Source: Candidatus Latescibacterota bacterium
GTDB taxonomy: Bacteria > Latescibacterota > UBA2968 > UBA8231
Direction of reading: 5' to 3'
Assembly (NCBI GenBank): GCA_022819745.1
Contig: JAJEGS010000039.1
Coordinates: 310,001-374,000, forward strand
DNA length: 64,000 nucleotides
Under the pieces are notes generated by a model. The model searched no databases. It saw nothing but the letters and a program-made list of their open reading frames with translations, and was not told where the DNA came from. The translations under genes were made by a program, and so were the position numbers. Positions 4,126 through 47,389 of this stretch are shown piece by piece. Each line of letters begins with the position of its first letter. Position 1 is the stretch's first letter.

Positions 4126-5739
4126 TCAAGGCGTCAGCGCGGTGCTGTGGAACCACTTGCTGCCCGTGGGATGCAGCTTGAAACCGGTGACGCGGCGCTG
4201 GAAAACCACCGTCTGCGTCGCGTGTACTAGCGGAACCCAAGGCGCGTCGCGGTGGACAATTTCCTGCGCCTGGGCATACAGCCGCGTGCGCACGTCGCGA
4301 TCAGTGGAGCGACGGGCCGCTACAAGCGCGTCGTGCAGCTCGCCACTGCGGTAGAACGAAATATTCTGGGCGGGTTTGATGGCCGCGGTTGAGTCGAGGA
4401 GCACGTAGAGGAAGTTGTCCGGGTCGCCGTTGTCGCCGGTCCAGCCCAACAAAGCCATCTGATGCTGGCCATCGAACACCTTGTCCAAGTACGTCCCCCA
4501 CTCCCAAGACACAATGCGGGCGTGAATGCCCACCTTTTCTAAGTCAGCCTGAATCGCCTCGGCGATCTTGCTAGGCTGTGGCATATAGGGGCGCGGCACC
4601 GGCATGGCCCACAGCTCGGTTTCAAAGCCGTCGGCATAACCAGCTTCCGCCAGCAAGGCCCGCGCTTTGGCTAGATCATAGCCATAGCCTGCAATGGTGT
4701 CGTTGTAGCTCCACAGGGTCGGCGGGATGGGGTTTTTGGCTGGCATGGCCAAGCCCTCGTAGAAATTATCCACGAGTGCCTGCTTATCCACGGCGTGGTT
4801 TATGGCTCGGCGCACCCGCACATCGTCGAAAGGCTTCTTGTCCATATTCATAGCCAAGTAGCCGGTATTCATGCCCGCCTGCGTCAAGAGCTGGAGGTTG
4901 GGGTCGGCGCGGATCGGCTCAATGTACTCAGGGCTGAGATTGTCGAAGCCATGAATCGTGCCCTGCGAAAGCTCCAAGAAGCGCACCGAGGATTCCTGAA
5001 TAGGCTTAAAAATTAGGCGGTCGAGCTGCGGCTGTGGCCCCCAGTAATCGGGATTGCGCTCCAAGACAATGCGCTCGTCCTTGCGCCATTCGACCAAGCG
5101 GAAGGGGCCGGTGCCGACCGGATTTTTGAAGTAATCGCTACCGTAACGGGCCACCGCGGTGGGGCTGACAGCCGCGCAGAAGTTCATCGCCAAGTTCGCC
5201 AAGAAGGGGGCATGAGGCTCTTTGAGGCGGATGACAAAGGTCGAGTCGTCCGGGGCTTCTAACGCGGCGACAATGTCGTCCATGCCCATGGCCTGCCAGT
5301 ATTTGAACGCGCCGGCGACCTTGTGGAAGGGATGGTCTTTGTCAAACTGCCGCCCGAGCGAAAACAGCATGGCCTCGGCGTTAAAGGGAGTGCCGTCGTG
5401 AAAGCGGACCCCCGTGCGCAAGTGGAAGGTCCACGTAAGCTGATCGTCCGCGATGTCCCAAGAATGCGCCAGCTGCGGTACCACGGCCGTGCTCTCGCTG
5501 TCGTAGGTCACCAAGGTCTCGTAGATGTTGTCGCAGACCTTGAACGATTCGCCGTCGTTTTCAATCCCCGGATCTAGCCCGATCGAATCCGAGCCACGGC
5601 CAAAAACCAACGTCTGCTGCGCTCGTTCCTCTTGGCCGCAAGCCACGAGCAGGGCGACAACTACAGCAATCCTGAATGATTGAACAATTCGAATTGCGGA
5701 TCGCCTTGTTTCTACTATTCTGCGTCCATCTGCGTCCAT
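4126..5739 (-). CDS. peptide/nickel-type ABC transporter solute-binding lipoprotein (SBP family 5)
   Basis: About 537 residues, typical for DppA/OppA-type binding proteins. A signal with lipobox LVAC precedes the mature start CGQEERAQQ, so it is a lipid-anchored receptor. 'DPGIENDGESFKVCDNIYETLV' and 'WTFHLRTGVRFHDGTPFNAE' are classic family signatures near the N terminus. The ATG at 5739 is preferred; an in-frame TTG at 5766 would add nine residues. The N-terminal codons lie in a 10-bp tandem repeat. Ligand is unknown: peptides, sugars and opines all occur in the family. It is co-directional with the TIM-barrel gene and the permease. Confidence 0.9.
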   Translation of the reverse strand: MDADGRRIVETRRSAIRIVQSFRIAVVVALLVACGQEERAQQTLVFGRGSDSIGLDPGIENDGESFKVCDNIYETLVTYDSESTAVVPQLAHSWDIADDQLTWTFHLRTGVRFHDGTPFNAEAMLFSLGRQFDKDHPFHKVAGAFKYWQAMGMDDIVAALEAPDDSTFVIRLKEPHAPFLANLAMNFCAAVSPTAVARYGSDYFKNPVGTGPFRLVEWRKDERIVLERNPDYWGPQPQLDRLIFKPIQESSVRFLELSQGTIHGFDNLSPEYIEPIRADPNLQLLTQAGMNTGYLAMNMDKKPFDDVRVRRAINHAVDKQALVDNFYEGLAMPAKNPIPPTLWSYNDTIAGYGYDLAKARALLAEAGYADGFETELWAMPVPRPYMPQPSKIAEAIQADLEKVGIHARIVSWEWGTYLDKVFDGQHQMALLGWTGDNGDPDNFLYVLLDSTAAIKPAQNISFYRSGELHDALVAARRSTDRDVRTRLYAQAQEIVHRDAPWVPLVHATQTVVFQRRVTGFKLHPTGSKWFHSTALTP

Positions 5740-5745
5740 CTGCGG
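5720..5745. repeat. short tandem repeat of CTGCGTCCAT
   Basis: The unit CTGCGTCCAT occurs twice in tandem and starts a third time (CTGCGG). It forms the 5' end of the solute-binding protein gene and may obscure its true start. Confidence 0.6.
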
Positions 5746-5768
5746 ATCATCTTGAAAACGCTGCAACG

Positions 5769-6758
5769 CTAGTCCTCAAACGCCGCGTCAAAGGCAATGT
5801 CCGAAGGCGGGAAATCGACCTGTTTGACAAAGGCGGCCGCTTCCGTCGCCCCGTGGACGCGATCCATGCCGCTGTCTTCCCATTCGACCGACAGCGGCCC
5901 TTGGTAGTTGATGCGATTGAGAGCGCGGATGATTTCCTCAAAGTCGATATTGCCGCGGCCCAACGAGCGGAAGTCCCAATAGCGCTGGCGGTCGCCGAAC
6001 TCGGTGTGCCCGCCGAAGACACCGGCATCGGTCGGCGTCGCGGACCAGCCTACGTCCTTCATGTGGACGTGGAAGATGCGGTCGCTGAATCGGTAAATGA
6101 ACTCGACGTAGTCCACGCCCTGATAGCCGAGATGGCTGGGATCGTAGTTGAAGCCAAAGGCCGGATGGCCGTCGAGTGCTTGAATGGCGCGCTCAGCCGA
6201 GGCGATATCAAAGGCGATTTCAGTGGGGTGAACCTCTAGCGCGAATTTGACGCCGAGCGCTTGGTATTGGTCGAGTATGGGTTTCCAGCGCGCAGCAAAA
6301 TCCGCGTACCCAGCCTCGATCATGTCGGGGGACACCGGCGGAAATGAATAGAGCAGGTGCCAGATCGAAGAGCCGGTAAAGCCGTTGACCACGTCAACCC
6401 CGAGCCGGGCGGCTGCTTGCCCCGTGGCGATCATCTCTGCGGCCGCGCGCTGACGCACGCCCTCTGGGTCGCCATCGCCGAAGATGCGCGGGGGCAGGAT
6501 GGCTTGGTGGCGGCTGTCGATGGCGTCGCACACAGCTTGGCCGACGAGGTGATTGGAAATGGAAAACAGCGCTAGATCGTATTTTGCGAGTAGTTCGCGC
6601 TTGGCCTGACAATAGGCATCTGTGGCTTGGTCAACCTCAAAATGGTCTCCCCAGCAGGCCAATTCCAAGCCGTCGTAGCCAAACTCAACGGCCTGTTGGC
6701 AGAGGGTCTCGATCGACAGGTCGGCCCACTGGCCAGTGAAGAGGGTGACAGGTCGCAT
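5769..6758 (-). CDS. sugar phosphate isomerase/epimerase-like TIM-barrel protein (AP_endonuc_2 family)
   Basis: A 329-aa xylose-isomerase-like barrel. '[16 protein letters not shown]' near residue 28, '[13 protein letters not shown]', '[14 protein letters not shown]' and '[10 protein letters not shown]' supply the Glu/His/Asp metal ligands on successive strands, and '[11 protein letters not shown]' gives the last acidic ligand. The family includes IolE/IolH/Hyi-like enzymes acting on inositol or keto sugars. The nearby Gfo/Idh/MocA enzyme at the left edge fits polyol metabolism, but substrate is not readable. It begins the transcript that continues into the binding protein and permease: the gap to the binding-protein ATG is about 30 bp. 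Confidence 0.88.
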
Positions 6759-35112: not shown

Positions 35113-37119
35113 ATGACGACCAGCAACGTGACAACAAACAACACCGACCTAAACTGGATCGCCAACTACATCTGGGGCATCGCCGACGACGTCCTGCGCG
35201 ACCTATACGTGCGCGGCAAGTACCGCGACGTGATTCTACCGATGACCGTGCTGCGCCGGCTCGACGCGGTGCTGGAAGACAGCAAGCAGGCGGTCTTGGA
35301 CATGAAAACCACCCTCGACAACGCCAGCGTCATCGAACAGGATCCAACTCTGCGACAGATCGCGGGACAGGCCTTCTACAACACCTCCAAGTTCACCCTG
35401 AGCGACCTACGCGCCCGCGCCAATCGTCAGCAACTCGAAGCCGACTTCCGGGCTTGGCTCGACGGGTTCTCGCCCAGCGTCCAAGACATTCTCGAAAACT
35501 TCGAGTTCCGCAACCAAGTCTCGCGGCTTTCTAGGGCCGACGCCCTCGGCACGCTTATCGAGAAGCTCACCTCTCCCGACATCAACCTGAGCCCGGCCCC
35601 AGTACACTACGCCGACGGCACGGTCAGGCACCCCGGCCTCGACAACCACGGCATGGGCACGATTTTCGAGGAGCTGATCCGGCGCTTCAACGAGGAGAAC
35701 AACGAGGAGGCGGGCGAACACTGGACCCCGCGCGACGCCGTAACCCTGATGGCGAAGCTGGTCTTCCTACCCGTCGCCGACCAGATCAAGTCCGGCACTT
35801 ACCTTATCTACGACGGAGCCTGCGGCACCGGCGGTATGCTGACCGTGGCCGAGGACGTGCTTCAGCAACTCGCCGCCGACCACGACAAGGAAGTCTCCAC
35901 CCACCTCTACGGCCAAGAGATCAACGCCGAGACCTACGCCATCTGCAAGGCCGACCTGCTGCTGAAGGGAGATGGAGACGCCGCCGACAACATCGTGGGC
36001 GGCCCGGAGCACTCCACCTTGGCCAACGACGCCTTCCCCTCCCAAGAGTTCGACTTCATGCTCTCCAATCCGCCCTACGGCAAGAGTTGGAAGACCGATT
36101 TGGAGCGCATGGGCGGCAAGCGCGACATGCGCGACCCGCGCTTCGTGATCGAGCACGCCGACGATCCCGAGTATTCCTTGGTCACCCGCTCCAGCGACGG
36201 CCAGATGCTCTTTCTCGCCAATAAGCTCTCCAAGATGAAGCCGGGCGGCAGCCGCATCGCCGAGGTACACAACGGCAGTTCCCTGTTCACCGGCGACGCT
36301 GGCCAAGGCGAGAGCAACATTCGCCGCTGGATCATCGAGAACGACTGGCTGGAGGCGATCGTCGCCCTGCCGCTCAACATGTTCTACAACACCGGCATCG
36401 CCACCTACGTCTGGGTGCTCACCAGCCGCAAGCCAGAGCATCGCCGGGGCAAGGTGCAGTTGATCGACGCCACCGAGTGGCACCGGCCGCTGCGCAAGAA
36501 CTTGGGCAAGAAGAACTGCGAGCTTGGCGAGGCGGACATCCAGCGCATCTGCGATACCTTCCTCGCCTTTGAGGAGAGCGAACAGAGCAAGATCTTCGAC
36601 AACGACGCCTTCGGCTACTGGAAGGTGACGGTCGAGCGACCGCTGCGGCTCGAAGGGGCCGACCCCAACCGCGCTTACAAAGCCGCCGAGATCAAGAAGC
36701 TGAAGGAGGACTGCGAGCGCAGCGAGACCGCGCCGCCCGTCATCAAAAAGATCCACAAGAGAGGCACAGAGGCCGACCCGCTGCGCGGCCGGTTCGAGGT
36801 TACTGTCAACGGCAAGCCCGTCGTGGTGGAGTACGAACCGGACACTGACCTGCGCGACACCGAGCAGATTCCGCTGCAAGAGGAAGGCGGCATCGAAGCG
36901 TTCCTGCAACGCGAGGTCCTGCCCTATGCGGCTGACGCTTGGTACCAACCGGACAGCGTGAGGATCGGCTACGAGATCAGCTTTACCCGATATTTCTACA
37001 AGCCGCAGCCGATGCGGACGCTGGAGGAGATTCGGGCCGACATTCTGGAGTTAGAGAAAGAAACAGAAGGGTTGCTGGGTGAGATACTGGGCGAAAGTCA
37101 ACGGCCAGCGGCCATATAG
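35113..37119 (+). CDS. hsdM: type I restriction-modification methyltransferase subunit HsdM
   Basis: A 668-aa N6-adenine methyltransferase. The N-terminal helical domain ('YRDVILPMTVLRRLDAVLED') is followed by 'GEHWTPRDAVTLMAKL', SAM motif I at 234-241 (DGACGTGG) and catalytic motif IV NPPY at 319-322. It would work with HsdS to methylate the target and with HsdR to cleave unmodified DNA. AGGGAAT precedes the ATG. It is the first gene of the island inserted after the DMFase-like gene; hsdS follows only after a toxin-antitoxin-like pair and a transposase-like gene. Confidence 0.96.
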   Translation: MTTSNVTTNNTDLNWIANYIWGIADDVLRDLYVRGKYRDVILPMTVLRRLDAVLEDSKQAVLDMKTTLDNASVIEQDPTLRQIAGQAFYNTSKFTLSDLRARANRQQLEADFRAWLDGFSPSVQDILENFEFRNQVSRLSRADALGTLIEKLTSPDINLSPAPVHYADGTVRHPGLDNHGMGTIFEELIRRFNEENNEEAGEHWTPRDAVTLMAKLVFLPVADQIKSGTYLIYDGACGTGGMLTVAEDVLQQLAADHDKEVSTHLYGQEINAETYAICKADLLLKGDGDAADNIVGGPEHSTLANDAFPSQEFDFMLSNPPYGKSWKTDLERMGGKRDMRDPRFVIEHADDPEYSLVTRSSDGQMLFLANKLSKMKPGGSRIAEVHNGSSLFTGDAGQGESNIRRWIIENDWLEAIVALPLNMFYNTGIATYVWVLTSRKPEHRRGKVQLIDATEWHRPLRKNLGKKNCELGEADIQRICDTFLAFEESEQSKIFDNDAFGYWKVTVERPLRLEGADPNRAYKAAEIKKLKEDCERSETAPPVIKKIHKRGTEADPLRGRFEVTVNGKPVVVEYEPDTDLRDTEQIPLQEEGGIEAFLQREVLPYAADAWYQPDSVRIGYEISFTRYFYKPQPMRTLEEIRADILELEKETEGLLGEILGESQRPAAI

Positions 37120-37133
37120 AGCAGGGACGAGCG

Positions 37134-37247
37134 ATGTCCAGCACCGAGATCATCTTTGAAGTCAGAGAAGACGAAGTGGGCCCGTGGCAGGCACCGAACT
37201 CAGGAGGAAATGGAAATGACAACGGAAACCCTGAATCAACACATTGA
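37134..37247 (+). pseudogene. 5' remnant of a HicB-like/DUF1902-type small antitoxin gene
   Basis: An ATG at 37134 opens 'MSSTEIIFEVREDEV', the start I associate with small HicB-like antitoxins (EIIFEVxEx...). The text then turns into low-complexity Gly/Asn and stops at 37247, inside the 5' end of the DUF433 gene in another frame. It looks like a beginning that was cut when the DUF433 cassette joined. Confidence 0.45.
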
Positions 37248-37539
37248 GATCACCCCAGGCATATCAAGTGGCAAACCCCGCATTGCCGGTCATCGAATCA
37301 CTGTGGAGAATATCGTCATCTGGCACGAGCGTCTAGGCAAAAGTGCCGACGAAATCGCCAGCGATTACGATATAACCCTCGCGGATGTGTATGCGGCCTT
37401 GGCTTACTATTTCGATCATCGGCATGAGATTGACCAATCGCTCGAAGAGAGTCGAGCATTTGTAAATGCCTTACGCCAAAAATCCTCTTCGAAGCTTCCT
37501 CAAAAGATTCAAGACCTGACGCAACGTGGCGAAGATTAA
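37216..37539 (+). CDS. DUF433 family protein (putative antitoxin)
   Basis: The ATG at 37216 lies 8 bp after AGGAGG (37202-37207) and gives 107 residues. 'EITPGISSGKPRIAGHRITVENIVIWHERLGKSADEIASDY' spans the whole DUF433 core, of which GKPRIAGHRITV is the hallmark; it has a winged-helix-like fold. DUF433 proteins usually pair with a DUF5615 PIN-like protein. Its end overlaps the start of that partner by 14 bp, the usual arrangement of a VapBC-like toxin-antitoxin operon. Confidence 0.9.
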   Translation: MTTETLNQHIEITPGISSGKPRIAGHRITVENIVIWHERLGKSADEIASDYDITLADVYAALAYYFDHRHEIDQSLEESRAFVNALRQKSSSKLPQKIQDLTQRGED

Positions 37540-37855
37540 GTTTTACACGGATGAGAATGTCTCAAGAGCAGTTGTGATGGGGCTACGTCGAAGAGGTGTG
37601 GATGTACTGACTGTTGCCGAAGCCGGAAATCTTGGAGCGTCTGATGAGGAAATTTTTAGAATGGCGAAGGAAGCAGAACGTGTCATCTTCACGCAGGATG
37701 ATGACTTCCTTCGTCTTGCAGCAACTGTTTCTGACCACCGAGGAATTGTTTACACGTCTCAAGAAAATACGGTTGGTGAGATAATTCGTGGCTTGATGTT
37801 GATCTATCAGGTTTTGGCAGCGGAAGAGATGGTGGGACATGTGGAATACCTGTAG
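37526..37855 (+). CDS. DUF5615 PIN-like protein (putative toxin)
   Basis: A 109-aa protein starting with GTG inside the DUF433 gene. The PIN-like core is visible: 'KFYTDENVSRAVVMGLRRRGVDVLT' with the first acidic pair D-E, 'GASDEEIFRMAKEAERVIFTQDDDFLRL' with the second acidic cluster. These acidic residues are expected to bind metal for RNA cleavage. It completes a two-gene toxin-antitoxin-like module placed between hsdM and hsdS, a common cargo of type I restriction loci. Confidence 0.88.
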   Translation: MAKIKFYTDENVSRAVVMGLRRRGVDVLTVAEAGNLGASDEEIFRMAKEAERVIFTQDDDFLRLAATVSDHRGIVYTSQENTVGEIIRGLMLIYQVLAAEEMVGHVEYL

Positions 37856-37877
37856 AACATGATGAGGTTCTCTTGGG

Positions 37878-38534
37878 ATGAAGTTACCTAACGCCGGCAA
37901 ACTGAAGCCGTATCCCACAATGAAGGATTCCGGTGTCGGGTGGATCGGCGACGCACCGAAACGCCAGCGTCGTTCCATACGGCTTCAGGGGTATGATTAC
38001 ACCCGACAGGGGGCATATTTCGTCACGATCTGTACTCGGAACCGGGCGTGTCTTCTCGGCGACATAGTAGAAGGCAGAATGCACCTTAGTGAGGCTGGAC
38101 GGTTGGCACAGGTCGCATGGGAAGATCTACCACACCATTACCCACACGTTCAGATAGACGTTTGGGTAATCATGCCCAATCACATTCACGGTATTGTAAT
38201 TTTGACCGAGGCACAGGCGACAGATGATGATATGCGGGTAGGGGCAGATCCCAAAACAGACGTAGGGGCAATATCCAAAATAAACGTAGGGGCAGGTTTG
38301 AAACCTGCCCCTACCCACCACGGCCTGTCCGAAATCGTTAGGGCCTTCAAGACCTTTTCGGCCAGACGCATCAACGCCTTGCACAATACGGTCGGTACGC
38401 CTTTCTGGCAGCGCAATTACTACGAACACATTATCCGAAACCAATCCGCGCTGGATCGGATTCGGCAATACATTGCGGATAACCCGGCCAGATGGTCGGA
38501 AGACCTAGAGAATCCTGCCGTTAGGGACGGCTAG
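37878..38534 (+). CDS. REP-associated tyrosine transposase (Y1/RAYT) with an HsdS-derived N terminus
   Basis: A 218-aa protein with the HUH motif HIH at 102-104 ('MPNHIHGIV') and a likely catalytic Tyr near 182 ('YEHIIRN'). These single-strand transposases mobilise REP palindromes. Residues 8-27 (LKPYPTMKDSGVGWIGDAP) do not belong to the family: they match the HsdS start (LKPYPAYKDSGVEWLGEVP) of the gene just downstream, so an hsdS beginning is fused to it. Residues about 115-140 are encoded by three 24-bp-spaced GTAGGGGCA units (38238, 38262, 38286), the last a REP palindrome in frame. Confidence 0.88.
   Translation: MKLPNAGKLKPYPTMKDSGVGWIGDAPKRQRRSIRLQGYDYTRQGAYFVTICTRNRACLLGDIVEGRMHLSEAGRLAQVAWEDLPHHYPHVQIDVWVIMPNHIHGIVILTEAQATDDDMRVGADPKTDVGAISKINVGAGLKPAPTHHGLSEIVRAFKTFSARRINALHNTVGTPFWQRNYYEHIIRNQSALDRIRQYIADNPARWSEDLENPAVRDG
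38286..38314. repeat. REP-like palindrome inside the RAYT coding sequence
   Basis: GTAGGGGCAGGTTT, one central G, then AAACCTGCCCCTAC: a perfect 14-bp stem. It is the third of three GTAGGGGCA units spaced 24 bp apart. It stays in frame and encodes VGAGLKPAPT. The same motif type is a known REP element of many bacteria. Confidence 0.85.
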
Positions 38535-38570: not shown

Positions 38571-38580
38571 ATTGGTGAAT

Positions 38581-40035
38581 ATGATGACCACAGATCTCAA
38601 ACCCTATCCTGCCTATAAGGACTCCGGTGTAGAATGGCTAGGGGAGGTGCCGGCGCATTGGGAGGTGAGGAAGCTACGTAACACGATACGGTCGGTAGCT
38701 GAACGAAATCGCCCAGACTTGCCGTTGCTGTCAGTGGTTCGTGAGAAAGGAGTAGTGGTTCGTGACGTATCGGACAAGGACGAAAACCACAATTTTATTC
38801 CCGATGACTTGACGAACTACAAGGTCGTAAAAAGACACCAATTTGCCATGAACAAAATGAAGGCATGGCAGGGGTCGTACGGGGTTTCCAATTTTCATGG
38901 TATCGTTAGCCCCGCGTATTTTGTTTTCGACATAGAAGGTGTTGATTCCAATTACTTCCACACGGCTATCAGATCTAAGGCCTACGTTCCATATTTCACA
39001 CGTGCTTCCGACGGCGTCCGCATCGGGCAATGGGACTTGTCAATAGCACGAATGCGCGAAATCCCATTCTTGGTCCCCTCCGTCTCGGAACAAATCGCCA
39101 TCGTCCGCTTCCTCGACTACGCCGACCGGCGCATCCGGCGCTACATCCGCGCCAAGCAGAAGCTGATTGCGCTGCTGGAGGAGCAGAAGCAGGCCATCAT
39201 CCACCAAGCCATTACGGGCCAGATCGACGTCCAAACCGGCCAGCCCTATCCGGCTTACAAGCCGTCCGGAGTGGAGTGGTTGAGCGGCGTACCGAAACAT
39301 TGGCAGCTTCTCCGGCTCAAGGATGTAGCGCAGGTCCAAACAGGCATCACTTTGGGCAAGGACTACAGGGGTACGCAAACCACATCTCGACCGTACTTAC
39401 GTGTCGCTAATGTTCAGGCGGGTTGTTTGGATCTTACACACGTCAAGTCTATCGATGTTCCGCAGAATGAGGCGAATCGGGCCACCTTGTTGACCGGGGA
39501 TGTTCTGATGACGGAAGGTGGAGATATCGACAAACTTGGGCGTGGATGTGTTTGGCGAGATGAGATTCCTGGATGTTTACACCAGAATCACATCTTTGCG
39601 GTGCGATGTAAGCGAGGACTCCTGAGCCCAGAGTTTCTAGTTGGACTCATGGGGTCGATACACGGACGGGCATATTTCGAATTTACAGCAAAGAAGACGA
39701 CGAACCTCGCATCCACCAATAGCAGTACATTGCGCAAATTTCCGGTTCTTCTTCCAGTTCTGGAAGAGCAAGTAGCTATACTCAACGTAATTTCTGAGGA
39801 AACGAATGCCCTAGACAATGCTATTGGTCGGGCAAGACGAGAAGTCGACCTAATCCAGGAATACCGCACCCGCCTCATCGCCGATGTCGTCACTGGCAAG
39901 CTCGACGTGCGCGAGGCGGCGGCTGAACTGCCGGAAGTGGATCCGCTTGCGGAAGATGACTTGGACAGTACAATCCATGATAGAGAGAATTCAAATCTCG
40001 GCGAACTCGACGCCGCCGAGGAGGTGACACTGTGA
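38581..40035 (+). CDS. hsdS: type I restriction-modification specificity subunit HsdS
   Basis: The ATG at 38581 gives 484 residues with two target-recognition domains, each led by the conserved opener 'YPAYKDSGVEWLGEVPAHW' and 'YPAYKPSGVEWLSGVPKHW' (about residues 7 and 222). The central helix is 'RFLDYADRRIRRYIRAKQKL' followed by 'ALLEEQKQAIIHQAITGQID'; the distal one ends 'YRTRLIADVVTGKLDVREAA'. It sets the bipartite DNA target of the HsdM/HsdR complex. The last 50 codons recur at 44167-44340 before hsdR, a sign of recombination. The stop overlaps the DUF433 GTG start. Confidence 0.95.
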   Translation: MMTTDLKPYPAYKDSGVEWLGEVPAHWEVRKLRNTIRSVAERNRPDLPLLSVVREKGVVVRDVSDKDENHNFIPDDLTNYKVVKRHQFAMNKMKAWQGSYGVSNFHGIVSPAYFVFDIEGVDSNYFHTAIRSKAYVPYFTRASDGVRIGQWDLSIARMREIPFLVPSVSEQIAIVRFLDYADRRIRRYIRAKQKLIALLEEQKQAIIHQAITGQIDVQTGQPYPAYKPSGVEWLSGVPKHWQLLRLKDVAQVQTGITLGKDYRGTQTTSRPYLRVANVQAGCLDLTHVKSIDVPQNEANRATLLTGDVLMTEGGDIDKLGRGCVWRDEIPGCLHQNHIFAVRCKRGLLSPEFLVGLMGSIHGRAYFEFTAKKTTNLASTNSSTLRKFPVLLPVLEEQVAILNVISEETNALDNAIGRARREVDLIQEYRTRLIADVVTGKLDVREAAAELPEVDPLAEDDLDSTIHDRENSNLGELDAAEEVTL

Positions 40036-40317: not shown

Positions 40318-40478
40318 TAAAAAAACGCTATTTTACGCTAGGTAATTGCAGCCGAAGATCTTCGAATTACTGGTGATGGAGAGGAAGGTTTAACGGCGAA
40401 AGCTTCTCGTCAGATGGTAAAATAAAAATTTGGCGAAGCATGGGTCACGGTCACCAAATTGAGAAAGACGGTAAGCGA

Positions 40479-41606
40479 ATGAAACTTGAAACGACCTCTA
40501 AGGTGTCGGTAGAAAGGCTTCGACTGGATCGCGAAAATCCCCGATTGTTTGGCCAAGCGGAGGACGCGTCCGACGAGTCGATCATCGCCCGACTGTATCG
40601 TTCGGCCGAGCTCGACGAGCTTCTTCAGTCGATATCCACCAACGGGTACCTCGACATCGAGCCCCTTGTCGTTATGTGCGCGTCTCAAGATGGCGAGCTC
40701 ATCGTACTTGAGGGGAACCGGAGGCTCGCCACGCTTCGTCTGCTGCGGGAGCCTGACTTGGTGGACAAGATCGCGTCCTCGGAGAATACCCGTATAACTG
40801 TGCCGGAGATCAACGACGAGTTACGCAGCACCCTGGACCAAGTGTCGGTCTACCTTGTCGCCGACCGGAAACGGGCCCGGGCGTTCATCGGCTTCAAGCA
40901 CATCAACGGTCCGGCGAAGTGGGACGCATATGCCAAGGCGCGGTTCGCAGCGAACTGGTACCGGACGGGCCGGGATGACGGTGTCGGCCTTGAACAAATC
41001 GCGGCGGCCATTGGAGATCGGCACGATACAATAAAACGGATGGTGTCGGCGATCTACGTGTTGGAGCAAGCGGAAAAAGAGGAGCTGTTCCAAGTCGAAG
41101 ATCGCAACACTAGAAAGTTCAATTTCTCCCACCTGTACACGGCGCTGTCGCGTTCACAATACATGGACTATCTGGGTCTTGAATCCGCTTGGTCGAGACA
41201 TGACCCGAGACCGGATCAAGTTCCGCAGATGAAGCTCAATGACCTTGGAAAGGTGCTAGTCTGGATCTACGGATCAAAGTCCGACGCAGTGCGACCAGTC
41301 GTGAGAACGCAAAATCCGGACATCAAGCGGCTGGGAGAGGTGCTCGCCAACGCGGAGGGCCGGCATGTCTTGGAGCAAACGGGCAATCTCGATGAAGCAC
41401 ACGCCAGCACAGAGCCCGTGGACAAGCGATTTACTGCGTCCCTGCTACGTGCTCGGGATGCGGTCCGTGATGCGACCGGTTCAATACGAGCTTACGATGG
41501 GACCGACAGTTCGCTTCTCGGCATTGCCGAAGACGTAAGGGAAACAGCGGATAGCCTGTACCATAGCATGGCCAGAAAAAACCGTGCCGCCCGTGCGGAA
41601 GAATGA
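40479..41606 (+). CDS. ParB-like (ParB/Srx fold) protein, first gene of a three-gene cassette
   Basis: The ATG at 40479 gives 375 residues. The N-terminal ParB/Spo0J/Srx-type fold is visible in 'VERLRLDRENPRLFG' and the nucleotide-binding motif 'IVLEGNRRLATLRLL' (EGNRR at 78-82, in place of the DGQHR or GERR of relatives). A helix-turn-helix-like segment follows ('GLEQIAAAIGDRHDTIKRMVSAIYVLEQ', core 'IAAAIGDRHDTIKRMV'). No parA or parS context exists, so a chromosome-partition role is unlikely. Its stop overlaps the next start (ATGA). Relatives of this fold act as CTPases, ATPases or nicking enzymes in defence systems; the activity here is unknown. Confidence 0.8.
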   Translation: MKLETTSKVSVERLRLDRENPRLFGQAEDASDESIIARLYRSAELDELLQSISTNGYLDIEPLVVMCASQDGELIVLEGNRRLATLRLLREPDLVDKIASSENTRITVPEINDELRSTLDQVSVYLVADRKRARAFIGFKHINGPAKWDAYAKARFAANWYRTGRDDGVGLEQIAAAIGDRHDTIKRMVSAIYVLEQAEKEELFQVEDRNTRKFNFSHLYTALSRSQYMDYLGLESAWSRHDPRPDQVPQMKLNDLGKVLVWIYGSKSDAVRPVVRTQNPDIKRLGEVLANAEGRHVLEQTGNLDEAHASTEPVDKRFTASLLRARDAVRDATGSIRAYDGTDSSLLGIAEDVRETADSLYHSMARKNRAARAEE

Positions 41607-42598
41607 TGCCCCTATATTTGCCGATAGACGAGGTAACCGGACCGCCGATAGACGCTGATCGCGCAGCCGATTTTTTGGAGCTCATGGCATTCTTTGCAGG
41701 CGACTCCATGGTTCTAACTTCGGAACTCGCCAACGCGGCGTCGCTCCCCGCAGAGGATCATGTCGATTTGCAGGAGGAGATGGAGGAGGGAGAGGAGGAG
41801 ATTGTCTCCACTGCGGTTAACCGGATTGAGACGCGACAGTGTGCGCTCGAGGCGACTTATCCGTTCAGGCTCGATTCTGATGGCGACCAGCTAAAGTGCG
41901 AGCTGGACGAAGAATCGTTCGGGCAGGCAGCGTATATTCTGAGCCTTGTCCTCTCAAACCTGCGAGCCTTTACGCCAGTGCTCGATAGTTCGGACCTCCA
42001 TCCGGGTTGTGCAGAAGTGCGGAGATTGCGGGAGTATTTTCAGTATTTTGCAACCGCGGCTTTGGCCGCAGAAATACAGGGGGAAGCTTGGTCATTTGGT
42101 TTTCCACGTCCTGACCGGTCAGGGTTTCTCGAAAAACTGGAACAGATTTGGGTGAAGCTCCAAGACGGTAGTGTCGAGCCGCAGACCGGAGCCTCGAAGC
42201 AGCCGAAGGATGATCGGATCGATGTCTTCGCAGCCCGTCCGCACCTCGATGGACTGCCGGGATTCCCCCTTGCAGCTGCGCAGGTTGCCACCGGTCGGAA
42301 CGCGGGGGAGAAGTCGCTCAAAGGTTATTTGAGTGCGTTCAAGAGCCGATGGTTCAGGACGCAGCCGGTGACCGATTTCATGGCCTATATGATTATGCCG
42401 TTCGCGACACCCGACGATCAGTTCTTGGATGACGTCCGGGTGATGGGGAATGTGCTGCACCGGCTACGGGTGCCCCGTCGTGTGGCCGAGGCCGACCAAC
42501 TCGTGGAGGCCGGTGTGATGATTGAAGGGTACGATCGGTTGGCAGAAGCCGCGCAGTGGGTCGCCAATTATCGTGGCCGCGCGGGAGTAGCTGTATGA
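41603..42598 (+). CDS. unknown protein, possible PD-(D/E)xK-like nuclease, second gene of the cassette
   Basis: No family is certain for this 331-aa protein. The N-terminal half is acidic ('DLQEEMEEGEEEI'). Residues about 165-240 contain 'SFGFPRPDRSGFLEKLEQIW' and then a pattern like a nuclease core: D207 in 'DDRIDVFAAR', a loop 'DGLPGFPLAAAQVATG' with Q227, and K237 in 'NAGEKS'. In PD-(D/E)xK folds an Asp strand is followed by (E/Q)xK-type residues, so a restriction-like nuclease is plausible but unproven. Both ends overlap the neighbours by four bases (ATGA), indicating equal expression with the ParB-like protein and the methyltransferase. Confidence 0.6.
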   Translation: MMPLYLPIDEVTGPPIDADRAADFLELMAFFAGDSMVLTSELANAASLPAEDHVDLQEEMEEGEEEIVSTAVNRIETRQCALEATYPFRLDSDGDQLKCELDEESFGQAAYILSLVLSNLRAFTPVLDSSDLHPGCAEVRRLREYFQYFATAALAAEIQGEAWSFGFPRPDRSGFLEKLEQIWVKLQDGSVEPQTGASKQPKDDRIDVFAARPHLDGLPGFPLAAAQVATGRNAGEKSLKGYLSAFKSRWFRTQPVTDFMAYMIMPFATPDDQFLDDVRVMGNVLHRLRVPRRVAEADQLVEAGVMIEGYDRLAEAAQWVANYRGRAGVAV

Positions 42599-43683
42599 GG
42601 CATCGATTCCATTCAATCTGTCCTTACTTCGCGATGTTCCCAGAGAGGTTCGTCGAGAAGCACCTTTCGGCGAGTCCATACGACGGAGTCGTCTTCGATC
42701 CGTACTGCGGGCGGGGCACGACCATGTTCCAGGCGCTGCTTCAGGGACGGGAAGCCGCCGGCTGCGATCTGAACCCAGTGGCGGCTTGCATCTCGGGAGC
42801 GAAGAGTGACTCGCCTAGATTCTCGGAAGTCAAAACGCGACTCGACGAGTTACGGCGAGGATGCTGTGAGCCGGACGACTTTGGGTGGCAAGGCAATTTG
42901 GGAGAGTTCTTCGACCTTTGTTTTTACCAGGACACCCTGCTGCAGGTGCGTTATCTGCGGTCCGTGCTAGATTGGCGTAACCGCAAGGACGACCGGTTCG
43001 TCGCAGCGCTGTGCCTCGGTGCGCTGCATGGTGAGTCCCACCGCTCCCCCAACTACTTCAGTAACCGTATGCCGCGTACAATTAGCACTAAGCCTGACTA
43101 TTCGATTCGATGGTGGCGGCGGTTCGGATATGTCCCGCCGCCGCGGGATGTCTTCGAGATTCTCGAACGGATGCTCGAATACCGGTTCCGAACCCCTCCT
43201 CCCAAAGGCTCCGCAGCGGTTATTCAGACCGACGCTCGCCTAGCCGCCTACAAGTTCCCGAGCCTCACAGGCCAAGTCACTGACGTGATTACTTCGCCGC
43301 CGTACCTCGACACCACCAACTACCGTGAGGATCAGTGGCTGCGTCTGTGGTTTCTCGACGGCGAGCCATCGGTACCGCGCGGACGGGGCGATGATCGACA
43401 TGGCGACAAGGACAACTACTGGACATTCATCCAGGAGTCTATGGCGGGACTGGGGCCTCTATTGGCTGGACGGGCGAGGATGGCCATTCGAATCGGGGGG
43501 CGTCGGCTAAATAAATCGGAGTTGAGAGCGGGATTGCTGCGGTCCTTGAGAGGAGGTCTTGGTCGCGAGGTGCGGCTTGTTGACGATGGTGTTACGACCG
43601 AAGTCGACAAAACACAGGCGAACTCGTTTCGCGGCAAGAAAGTGTCACAGTTCGAAGAGCATGACTTCTGTTTTGTGATGTAG
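42595..43683 (+). CDS. SAM-dependent DNA methyltransferase (N4-cytosine/N6-adenine type), third gene of the cassette
   Basis: The ATG at 42595, inside an ATGA overlap, gives 362 residues. SAM motif I is at about 34-43 (FDPYCGRGTT) with 'GREAAGCDLNPVA' forming motif II, and catalytic motif IV is TSPPY at 233-237. Motif I before IV differs from the usual beta-class order. Amino-group methylation of DNA is therefore likely; the exact base is not. It is no longer than a modification enzyme and has no visible nuclease domain, so cleavage would depend on its cassette partners. An HsdS-type fragment follows. Confidence 0.87.
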   Translation: MRHRFHSICPYFAMFPERFVEKHLSASPYDGVVFDPYCGRGTTMFQALLQGREAAGCDLNPVAACISGAKSDSPRFSEVKTRLDELRRGCCEPDDFGWQGNLGEFFDLCFYQDTLLQVRYLRSVLDWRNRKDDRFVAALCLGALHGESHRSPNYFSNRMPRTISTKPDYSIRWWRRFGYVPPPRDVFEILERMLEYRFRTPPPKGSAAVIQTDARLAAYKFPSLTGQVTDVITSPPYLDTTNYREDQWLRLWFLDGEPSVPRGRGDDRHGDKDNYWTFIQESMAGLGPLLAGRARMAIRIGGRRLNKSELRAGLLRSLRGGLGREVRLVDDGVTTEVDKTQANSFRGKKVSQFEEHDFCFVM

Positions 43684-44145: not shown

Positions 44146-44166
44146 AATCGACCACGCGAGTACTTG

Positions 44167-44340
44167 ACCCGCCTAATCGCCGATGTCGTCACTGGCAAGC
44201 TCGACGTGCGCGAGGCGGCGGCTGAACTGCCGGAAGAGGACCCGCTTGCGGAAGACGACTTGGACGGTACAATCCATGATAGGGAGAATTCAAATCTCGG
44301 CGAACTCGACGCCGAAGACGAAGACCGCAAGCGCGGATAA
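44167..44340 (+). pseudogene. hsdS: hsdS 3'-end fragment
   Basis: From ACC at 44167 the frame reads 'TRLIADVVTGKLDVREAAAE' onward to '...ELDAEDEDRKRG' and a stop at 44338-44340. It is nearly identical to 39871-40013 of hsdS, differing at a few bases, and ends 41 bp before the hsdR ATG. It marks the original hsdS-hsdR junction now separated from the working hsdS by the inserted cassette. Confidence 0.9.
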
Positions 44341-44381: not shown

Positions 44382-47300
44382 ATGCCCACCGACACCTCCG
44401 AACGCGGCCTCGAACGCCTCATCTGCACAGCCCTAACCGGCCATCCCTGCGACCCACCTTTAGGTCCCACCGTAGGCGAACCACCTGCCCGCTACGCCGG
44501 AGTCGGTTGGGCCGGCGGCAACTTCCACGACTACGACCGCGAATACTGCGTCGATCTAGCCCAGCTCTCCGCCTTCCTCCGCGCCACCCAGCCCGAAGCA
44601 GCAGAATCCCTCGACTTGTCCGAGGCCAGCCCCACACGCCGCCGGTTCCTAGCCCGGCTCCAAGGCGAAATCACCAAACGCGGCACCATCGACGTGCTGC
44701 GCCACGGCATCAAGCACGAAGCGCACAACCTAGACCTAATTCTACGGCACGCCTTCAGCCGACAACCCAGAAGCCCAAGAGCGCTTCAAACAAAACCGCT
44801 TCACCGTCACCCGCCAGCTTCGCTACAGCCGCGACGAAACCCAGCGCGCCCTCGACATCGGCCTGTTCATCAACGGCCTGCCAGTCTTCACCTTCGAGCT
44901 AAAAAACAGCCTCACCAAACAGACGGTAGCCGACGCCGTCCAGCAGTATCAGCGCGACCGCAACCCGCGCGAGAAACTGTTCGAGTTCGGCCGCTGCGTC
45001 GCCCACTTCGCGCTCGACGAAAACGAAATCCGCTTCTGCACCCACCTCAGCGGCAAGACCTCCTGGTTCCTCCCCTTCAACCGAGGCTGGAACGACGGCG
45101 CTGGAAACCCACCCAATCCCAACGGCCTGGCCATCGACTACCTGTGGCGAGAAGTACTCCCCCGTGAGAGCCTGACCAATATCCTAGAAAACTACGCCCA
45201 AGTAGTAGAATCGAAAGACGAGAAAACGGGCAAGAAGAAGCAGACCCAGATCTGGCCCCGCTACCATCAACTCGACGTAGTGCGCCGCCTGCTCGCCGAC
45301 GCGCGTATCCACGGCGTAGGACAGCGCTACCTAATCCAACACTCGGCCGGCAGCGGCAAGAGCAACTCCATCGCCTGGCTAGCCCACCAATTAATCGGCC
45401 TAGAGAAAGACAGCGCTCCAGTCTTCGACTCAATCATCGTCGTCACCGACCGCCTCATCCTCGACCGCCAGATCCGCGACACCATCAAGCAGTATTCCCA
45501 AGTATCGGCGACGATAGGACACGCCGACCGCTCGGGCGACCTGCGCCGATTCATCGAGAGCGGCAAGAAAATCATCATCTCGACGATCCAGAAATTCCCC
45601 TTCATCCTCGACGAGATCGGCAACCAGCAGCGCGGACGGCACTTCGCCATCATCATCGACGAAGCCCACTCCAGCCAAGGCGGTCGCACCGGTGCCGCCA
45701 TGGCGCAGGCGCTCTCCGAGGCAGGCGCAGAAGAGGAAGAAGAAACCTTCGAGGACCAGATCAACCGCCTGATGGAGTCGCGCAAGCTGCTCCCCAACGC
45801 CAGCTACTTCGCCTTCACCGCCACGCCCAAAAACAAGACGCTGGAAATCTTCGGTGCCCCGAACCCGCAGGCCGACGGCAAGGTCAGCCACCACGCCTTC
45901 CACAGCTACACCATGAAACAGGCGATCCAAGAGGGGTTCATCCTCGACGTGCTCGCCCACTACATGCCGGTGCAGAGCTACTACAAGCTCGCCAAAACAG
46001 TGGAAGAAGACCCAGAATTCGACGTCAACAAGGCCCAAAAGAAACTGCGCCGCTTCGTCGAGAGCAGCGACCACGCGATTGGACTCAAAGCCCAGATCAT
46101 GGTCGATCACTTCCACGACCAAGTGCTGGCGCAAAACAAAATCGGCGGCCAAGCGCGGGCCATGGTGGTCACCAACGGCATCGAGCGCGCCATCCAGTAC
46201 TACCACGCAATCCGCGACTACCTGCAGGAGCGCAAGAGCCGCTACCGGGCTATCGTCGCCTTCTCCGGCGAGCACGAGTTCGGCGGCGAGAAAGTCACCG
46301 AAGCATCGCTGAACGGCTTCCCCTCCGCCCAGATCGCCGGGCAGTTCCAAGAAGACCCCTACCGCTTCCTAGTCTGCGCCGACAAATTCCAGACAGGGTA
46401 CGACGAACCCCTGCTGCACACCATGTACGTGGACAAGACGCTGTCCAGCATCAAGGCGGTGCAAACCCCTCTCCCGCCTCAACCGGGCGCATCCCAAGAA
46501 GCACGACGTGTTCGTACTCGATTTCCTCAACGACGCCGACACCATCCGCGACGCCTTCGCCGACTATTACCGCGCGACCATCCTAGCTGACGAAACCGAC
46601 CCCAACAAACTGCACGACTTGCAGACGAGCCTAGACCGCGCCCAAGTCTATTCCGACGAACAAATCGACGACCTTGTCGAGCGCTACCTCGGCGGTGCCC
46701 AGCGCGACCAACTCGACCCAATCCTCGACGCCTGCGTGGCGGCCTACAAAACCGATCTGGACGAGGACGGCCAAGTGGAGTTCAAAGGCAACGCCAAGGG
46801 CTTCGTGCGAACCTACGCCTTCCTCTCGTCCGTGCTTCCCTACAACGACGCCGGCTGGGAGAAGCGCTCAATCTTCCTGAACTTCCTGATTCCAAAGCTG
46901 CCCACTCCCAAGGAAGAAGATCTGTCGAAGGGCATCCTCGACGCCATCGACCTAGACAGCTACCGGGTCGAAAAGCAAGCGATGCAGCAGATCCTGCTGC
47001 CGGACGAGGACGCCGCAGTCGATCCAGTGCCGACCACCGGCGGCGGTCACCGCACCGAGCCGGAGCTGGACCGGCTGTCGAACATCCTCAAGACGTTCAA
47101 CGATCTGTTCGGCGATATCGCCTGGGAAGACGCCGACCGCGTGGGGGAACTCATCACCAAGACCATCCCGTCCCGGGTAGCTGCAGACGCTGCCTTCAAG
47201 AATGCGCGGCAAAACTCGGACGCCGCCAACTCCCGCATCGAGCACGATAAGGCGCTGCTGCGGGTCATGACGAACGTCATGAAGGACGACACCGAACTCT

Positions 47301-47389
47301 TCAAACAGTTCATGGACAACGAGGGTTTCAAGCGCTGGATGACCGACAGGGTATTCGAGTTGGCCTGCGAGCAGACGAGTGCGCCTTGA
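44382..47389 (+). pseudogene. hsdR: type I restriction subunit HsdR, disrupted by two single-base frameshifts
   Basis: From ATG 44382 the start reads 'MPTDTSERGLERLICTALTG'. An extra A near 44738-44739 shifts the frame before 'YGTPSADNPEAQERFKQNRF', and an extra C in the run 46466-46469 shifts it again before 'LSRLNRAHPKKHDVFVLDFL'. Between are the nuclease domain ('GLPVFTFELKNS', where E-x-K is the PD-(D/E)xK core), Walker A 'SAGSGKSNSIAWL' and DEAH box 'IIIDEAHSSQGG'. Pieced together it is a full-length subunit of about 1000 residues. The lesions are either real inactivation or assembly indels; without them restriction would be intact. Confidence 0.88.

Follow-up and report, generated by a model that had tools for sequence, protein, structure and literature searches.

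What does a gene cassette that joins a ParB-like protein, a middle protein (MID) and a DNA methyltransferase do for its carrier? We analyzed such a cassette at positions 40479-43683 of a 64,000-nucleotide stretch of contig JAJEGS010000039.1 from a Candidatus Latescibacterota bacterium; "the window" denotes this whole stretch. An earlier note on this DNA had proposed a restriction or defence system in which methylation distinguishes self DNA and MID is the effector. Our comparisons point, with a probability that we put at roughly 0.7, to a restriction-modification system of three components whose methyltransferases are interchangeable. It would be related to PD-lambda-5 as a split form that carries a nuclease. 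The latter is a two-gene E. coli anti-phage system, which changed plating or plaque size for every phage except one in a published screen of ten (Vassallo et al. 2022, PMC9519451).

The cassette consists of three intact, translationally coupled genes on the plus strand, joined by ATGA overlaps at 41603-41606 (ParB-like/MID) and 42595-42598 (MID/methyltransferase), as the earlier note had described. The motifs that it had picked out, EGNRR in the ParB-like protein, D207/Q227/K237 in MID, and FDPYCGRGTT before TSPPY in the methyltransferase, were also found in place (Table 1). Since EGNRR, D207, Q227 and K237 are conserved across the family rows described below, this observation is more than chance. 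The window methyltransferase matches PF01555 (8.5e-11, Pfam) and MTase_II PDLC03325 (5.6e-25, PADLOC) and is, judged by these profiles, an amino-methyltransferase (N4-C or N6-A).

The ParB-MID pair and its methyltransferases

Neighbourhoods were examined at 32 loci: the window, L001-L008, L015-L018, L020, L022, L023, L066-L073, L078-L080 and L087-L091. Among them, L006-L008 are plasmid records, L015-L018 are viral contigs, and L020, L022 and L023 are phages found through ParB; L019 and L021, which repeat L015 and L020, were omitted. After the three loci with a broken or fragmentary MID (L006, L066 and L073) were set aside, 29 remained, representing 23 clusters at 80% identity. At all 29, ParB lies immediately upstream of MID on the same strand, with a gap of -80 to +5 bp as measured between the longest open frames. 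When only the loci found through MID were counted (leaving out the window, L020, L022 and L023), ParB was present in 25/25. Furthermore, a methyltransferase stands beside the pair in 28 of the 29 loci. The three genes grouped by the earlier note thus occur together in other genomes, and linkage of a methyltransferase gene to a predicted nuclease gene, the arrangement by which we recognize restriction-modification, was found in those 28. This coupling fits the proposed methylation-based plan for telling self from non-self.

According to purpose-built models of two to four sequences each, with which Pfam agrees in all 13 of the 28 loci to which it was applied, the methyltransferases fall into three mutually unrelated classes: PF01555 type (9 loci), D12 (9) and C5 (10). 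Pfam confirmed PF01555 in the window, L007 and L067; PF02086 (D12) in L008, L015, L069, L072 and L079; and PF00145 (C5) in L022, L023, L070, L071 and L080. The PF01555-type gene is downstream of the pair in all nine cases. D12 genes are convergent (6) or upstream (3), and C5 genes are upstream (5), convergent (4) or downstream (1).

Trees of ParB and MID were built for 21 of the 29 loci, with L017, L018, L080 and L087-L091 left out. The methyltransferase class changes four times on the ParB tree and five times on the MID tree, the minimum possible being two; the exact counts are soft because several branches are long. The PF01555-type locus L067 and the D12 locus L069 are sisters (support 98/99 and 97/93), and the C5 rows occupy one side of a branch. 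For the ParB and MID trees, respectively, the approximately unbiased (AU) test rejected a single PF01555-type clade with p 2e-6 and 1.6e-9, and a single D12 clade with p 5.9e-4 and 3.6e-9. Moreover, among P2-like phages, the WPhi and 12474 methyltransferases are 97.8% identical, as against 32% for ParB and 25% for MID, which suggests that the modification gene moves independently of the pair. On these trees and tests, the methyltransferase class has been exchanged repeatedly beside ParB-MID.

At the loci set aside, L006 (6992-8809) has MID in two frames, no ParB and a D12 methyltransferase, while L066 (3081-6296) has a stop inside MID and open ParB and methyltransferase frames; L073 holds a MID piece of 148 amino acids (aa) for which no partner was found. 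A broken MID with an open methyltransferase (L006, L066) is the loss order expected of decaying restriction-modification, unless assembly errors are responsible. At another locus, L087, the pair (4340-6519) adjoins polysaccharide-type genes (DegT aminotransferases and a sugar transferase).

MID as a predicted nuclease and the ParB-like protein

The earlier note had taken MID for a putative nuclease. In an alignment of 112 rows (90 of set A2 plus 22 others, with some duplicate or near-duplicate sequences), D207 is kept in all 112; 109 rows have Q227 and 110 have K237. K237 is replaced by Thr in L072 and by Leu in L078, the only two rows that carry Lys229, giving a classical Q-x-K (QCKTG); since these two are sisters, the lysine shift would be one event. 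Lysine migration is known in PD-(D/E)xK enzymes. In L087-L091, which were added later, the D, Q and K are kept throughout.

The C-terminal half of MID was compared by hhalign with Mrr_cat, represented by 15 domains reading cleanly among 30 loci (one of them, L055, probably spurious). The score was 24.2 (E 0.0026), a value reached by none of 300 column shuffles (best 20.9); five controls against Mrr_cat (ParB, three methyltransferase sets and the N-terminal half of MID) gave 10.2-16.0. Other builds of the MID profile behaved similarly, with 26.0 for a five-member profile (best of 200 shuffles, 18.2) and 24.5 for the 112-row profile (17.5). In the alignment, Asp207 is paired with the Asp of the Mrr GDGGID motif, and Gln227 with that motif's counterpart in QAK, the Gln. 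Together, residue conservation and an alignment beyond shuffles suggest that the nuclease assignment was sound and that MID likely has a PD-(D/E)xK fold.

Database searches returned little else. For the window MID, nothing was found in Pfam, NCBIfam or PADLOC (E<=1) or in PDB (E<=10). Pfam gave scattered weak families for the 90 MID members (best, DUF6197 at 0.0021, in 2/90), NCBIfam three weak matches for nine MIDs (0.002, 0.053 and 0.036, far below cut-offs), and the MID profile two spurious tag-and-linker matches in PDB (0.73 and 2.1). MID does match phrog_14650, of unknown function, at 4.8e-17.

The ParB-like protein has a ParB-type N-terminal domain in which E78-G79-N80-R81-R82 is invariant in 33/33 rows. 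The canonical ParB motif is GERR, and the family profile matches ParB 4umk in PDB (4.2e-4) with EGNRR aligned on the GERR box. A second profile segment, by itself not significant, aligns with the helix-turn-helix of Spo0J (1vz0). The window protein alone gives sub-threshold matches to the partition families PF02195 (E 0.1) and TIGR00180 (0.0013); WPhi gp98, of the same family, reaches 4.2e-7 with TIGR00180, yet remains below that model's cut-off. The protein also matches phrog_3694, of unknown function, at 1.7e-81. In PADLOC, the window ParB matches PD-Lambda-5_A (7.7e-25, residues 6-159; with one model the match extends to residue 235) and, with residues 41-345, positions 57-346 of the 715-residue model PDC-M38A (2.6e-17). 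The earlier note had missed both matches.

Two phages reached through ParB, AS1 (L024, 4971-7436) and ValB1MD-2 (L025, 3132-5571), have gene sets of the PD-lambda-5 kind, in fused and split form. The C-terminal part of the AS1 protein weakly matches a separate ValB1MD-2 gene (1.5e-4), and Pfam gave nothing convincing for this split second protein. The second part being non-MID in these phages, at least two kinds of effector seem to operate with the ParB-methyltransferase pair. The idea that MID corresponds to the C-terminal part of PD-lambda-5_A was dropped, as the MID profile found no match to the AS1/ValB1MD-2 relatives.

Genomic setting and distribution

In the window, the cassette is embedded in a type I hsd locus, between hsdS and hsdR (Table 1), a context that the earlier note had not recognized. 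In the congeneric genomes G005 and G009, hsdM and hsdR are 90-94% identical to those of the window, hsdS and hsdR are about 1 kb apart, and the trio is absent from that place. Their hsdR genes are uninterrupted, with 1,024 and 1,014 codons, and the split hsdR of the present assembly reflects either decay or a sequencing error. The sequence of the hsdS 3' repeat matches only the hsdS gene itself in G005 and G009. At this junction, a third congeneric genome, G001, has two other open reading frames (ORFs), 567 and 344 codons long (L110, 8146-10820). The trio-less junction in G005 and G009 and the other ORFs in G001 make the hsdS-hsdR junction look like a cargo site, where the trio looks like a recent arrival.

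The 567-codon ORF of G001 is similar to the uncharacterized protein of PDB 3lmm (9.2e-18); for the 344-codon ORF, no PDB chain was found at E<=0.001. G005 has its own D12 cassette at another place (L072). In the window, the hsdM-hsdS interval (37156-38534) holds a DUF433/DUF5615 (PIN-like) pair (PF04255, 4.5e-19; PF18480, 2e-21) and a REP-associated tyrosine transposase (NF047646, 1.4e-17, below cut-off), so that cargo is present at two junctions of the hsd locus. The hsd system as a required partner of the trio was dropped, since two relatives have hsd without the trio.

Table 1. Features of the cassette and of the surrounding hsd locus (positions in the window; all on the plus strand)
Feature	Position	Strand	Details
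hsdM	35113-37119	+	PF02384 1.4e-52, PF12161 3.6e-20
hsdS, directly upstream of cassette	38572-40035	+	PF01420 9.4e-10; PADLOC Specificity_I 5e-98
hsdS 3' end, repeated past cassette	39859-40022	+	repeat family D1, 92%; 96% over 148 bp
ParB-like gene	40479-41606	+	375 aa; frame stays open back to ATG at 40440
EGNRR box of ParB-like protein	residues 78-82; codons 40710-40724	+	
Possible helix-turn-helix of ParB-like protein	near residues 169-192	+	
MID gene	41603-42598	+	331 aa; predicted PD-(D/E)xK-type nuclease
MID D207	codon 42221-42223	+	
MID Q227	codon 42281-42283	+	
MID K237	codon 42311-42313	+	
DNA methyltransferase gene	42595-43683	+	362 aa
Methyltransferase motif I FDPYCGRGTT	residues 34-43; 42694-42723	+	
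Methyltransferase TSPPY	residues 233-237; 43291-43305	+	motif I stands before TSPPY
Partial second hsdS 3' end between cassette and hsdR	44158-44321	+	possible recombination scar
hsdR, downstream, spread over three reading frames	44382-47389	+	three-frame reading; SWI2_SNF2 2.2e-28 in 45280-46590

Elsewhere the trio occupies a prophage site. In a P2-like prophage of E. coli D10 it is flanked by the genes for the replication endonuclease and the portal, and in phage 12474III likewise it stands between P2 genes A and Q, an interval described as a hotspot of anti-phage systems in PMC9122126. In WPhi, orf98-orf96-mth encodes a ParB-like protein, a MID-like protein (6.8e-20) and a C5 methyltransferase. 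This is the same three-part plan as in the window, the methyltransferase here being convergent and of the C5 class; in open-licence PubMed Central text, as far as it was covered, we found no naming of these genes as a system. Among 5,426 complete E. coli genomes, 103 match at least 80% of the WPhi C5 trio, 36 match the 12474-type C5 trio and 8 the D12-form MID gene; these sets may overlap, and matches were counted regardless of gene intactness.

The MID family, which has no Pfam entry, comprises 895 relatives at E<=0.001 among 7,998 candidates scored. The Vibrio MID as query gave 97 relatives among 1,149 scored, with names including Vibrio, E. coli, Salmonella, Klebsiella and Proteus. For comparison, the Mesorhizobium ParB has 2,044 relatives among 7,994 candidates scored. 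In whole genomes, MID was present in 1/60 relatives of the nearest genome and, in four further sets, in 1/274 (the centre genome itself), 8/396 (centre included; one a fragment and one broken), 4/385 (centre included) and 6/291 (including G005, itself a member of the query). Such sparse, patchy occurrence is in keeping with a mobile defence gene. No phage record matched when two MID proteins served as queries; the phage members were reached by a ParB search, which matched 14 records, of which six were taken (L020-L025), most of the other eight being named as the same or sister phages. Viral contigs yielded nothing with the window MID and four members with the E. coli MID.

Readings of the cassette and known systems

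In a restriction-modification system of this kind, the methyltransferase would mark the host genome at a short sequence. As the subunit for recognition and activation, the ParB-like protein, with its EGNRR N-terminal domain and probably a helix-turn-helix after it, would bind DNA, possibly under nucleotide control as in ParB/Spo0J, and would recruit or license MID, perhaps within a physical complex. MID, as a PD-(D/E)xK-type nuclease, would then cut DNA that lacks the mark. ParB and MID would form the fixed core, and the methyltransferase (PF01555 type, D12 or C5) the replaceable module.

Several results weigh against this. In some phages the ParB domain occurs in the absence of MID (L024, L025), and at L087 no methyltransferase was found within 3-4 kb of the pair by our own models or by Pfam on 4/8 other ORFs of at least 150 aa. 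Q227 is replaced by Ala in L079 and by Asn in L067 and L070. The hhalign probability of MID against Mrr_cat is 6-19%, and because it stays below 20% we call the fold likely and no more. PADLOC models are matched by none of the MIDs tested, including nine divergent ones at E<=0.1. The ParB box is EGNRR rather than GERR, so that nucleotide binding is not assured. Finally, no experiment on any trio member was found in the open-licence PubMed Central literature that we searched.

A more specific version, that a nucleotide-gated ParB-type clamp is the specificity and activation subunit, which loads at unmethylated sites, slides and licenses the nuclease, the core being re-paired with N4/N6-amino, D12 or C5 methyltransferases, is at present a tentative proposal and rather doubtful. 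If it were true, evolution would swap the chemistry of the self mark and keep the weapon.

Among the alternatives, abortive infection fares best, though we consider it unlikely. The methyltransferase would again mark self, and ParB would sense foreign or unmethylated DNA, whereupon MID would attack the cell's own nucleic acid (or RNA) and the cell would die. The non-MID-like second half of the AS1 and ValB1MD-2 PD-lambda-5-like proteins is in line with this, as effectors then vary behind the ParB-methyltransferase pair. However, the MID residues resemble a DNA-cleaving PD-(D/E)xK site, and a linked DNA methyltransferase is expected where the effector attacks DNA.

That the trio is a maintenance module of prophages and plasmids, with ParB partitioning, the methyltransferase protecting the element's DNA and MID as an accessory, seems decidedly improbable. 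The E. coli D10 protein is indeed named "ParB/RepB/Spo0J family partition protein" by PGAP, but a ParA-annotated gene stands beside ParB in none of L019-L023 (where several neighbours are "hypothetical"), the partner that is strictly retained is the nuclease-like MID, and the cassette is also chromosomal, here within the hsd locus. Least probable is an orphan methyltransferase beside an unrelated, type IV-like pair that degrades modified DNA: ParB-like domains do accompany nucleases in GmrSD enzymes (PMC12373910), but the coupling in 28/29 loci, in several positions and orientations, is expected if the methyltransferase protects and unexpected if the pair attacks methylated DNA.

If the cassette is a restriction-modification system, a function would be assigned to a large family of predicted nucleases that Pfam lacks, two-gene PD-lambda-5 would join a larger modular family, and ParB chemistry would be brought into restriction. 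Laboratory E. coli gives a ready test bed, as the classical phage WPhi carries the trio.

How, then, does the trio relate to what is known? We found no description of it in the open-licence PubMed Central text that we searched; figures and supplements, outside that scope, may hold one (e.g., the P2-hotspot catalogue of PMC9122126). With regard to marker genes of Dnd/Ssp, BREX or DISARM, the best 25 PADLOC matches of each of eight window proteins (the trio and the hsd pieces) are to type I, type II, PD-Lambda-5 and PDC-M38A models, with mad2 (6.1e-17) for HsdM. The sister methyltransferase of L007 weakly matches PglX (8.4e-7).

To our knowledge, GmrSD type IV enzymes have no methyltransferase, and the trio seems to be tied to DGQHR/GmrSD proteins at the level of the ParB/Srx fold only. 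In GmrSD/DUF262 enzymes a ParB-like domain is likewise paired with a nuclease (PMC12373910), but this nuclease is HNH or DUF1524, the motif is DGQQR and the targets are methylated or glucosylated. ParB/Spo0J partition proteins share the N-terminal domain with a G-x-R-R box and, as a weaker hint, the helix-turn-helix; they differ in having GERR instead of EGNRR, and here the partner genes encode a nuclease-like protein and a methyltransferase. Type II restriction-modification also has a separate methyltransferase adjoining a predicted PD-(D/E)xK nuclease, whereas the trio adds a constantly linked ParB-like protein, and a single nuclease family goes with methyltransferases of three unrelated classes. 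The phage-defence candidate PDC-M38A shares the ParB region, but its model is twice as long as the window ParB.

PD-lambda-5 comes closest. It shares the homologous ParB-like N-terminal domain, the homologous D12 methyltransferase of the D12 variants, and prophage homes. The E. coli ParB matches PD-Lambda-5_A (4.6e-22, about 160 residues), and the D12 partners of E. coli (7e-94), Vibrio (6.6e-95) and Microvirga (1.2e-89) match PD-Lambda-5_B along almost their whole length. In contrast to the trio, PD-lambda-5 has two components, and its A models, mostly 430-590 aa, fuse the ParB part to a C-terminal region, while the window ParB has 375 aa and matches with roughly the first 160. A D12 B protein is found in the sister cassettes L008 and L015 and in L006, but the window enzyme is of the PF01555 type. 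The earlier note could not match the cassette to BREX, DISARM, Dnd/Ssp or classical type I-IV systems. Known relatives do exist for ParB and the sister D12 enzymes, and the cassette is, by the sequence tests made, related to PD-lambda-5 yet not a member of it.

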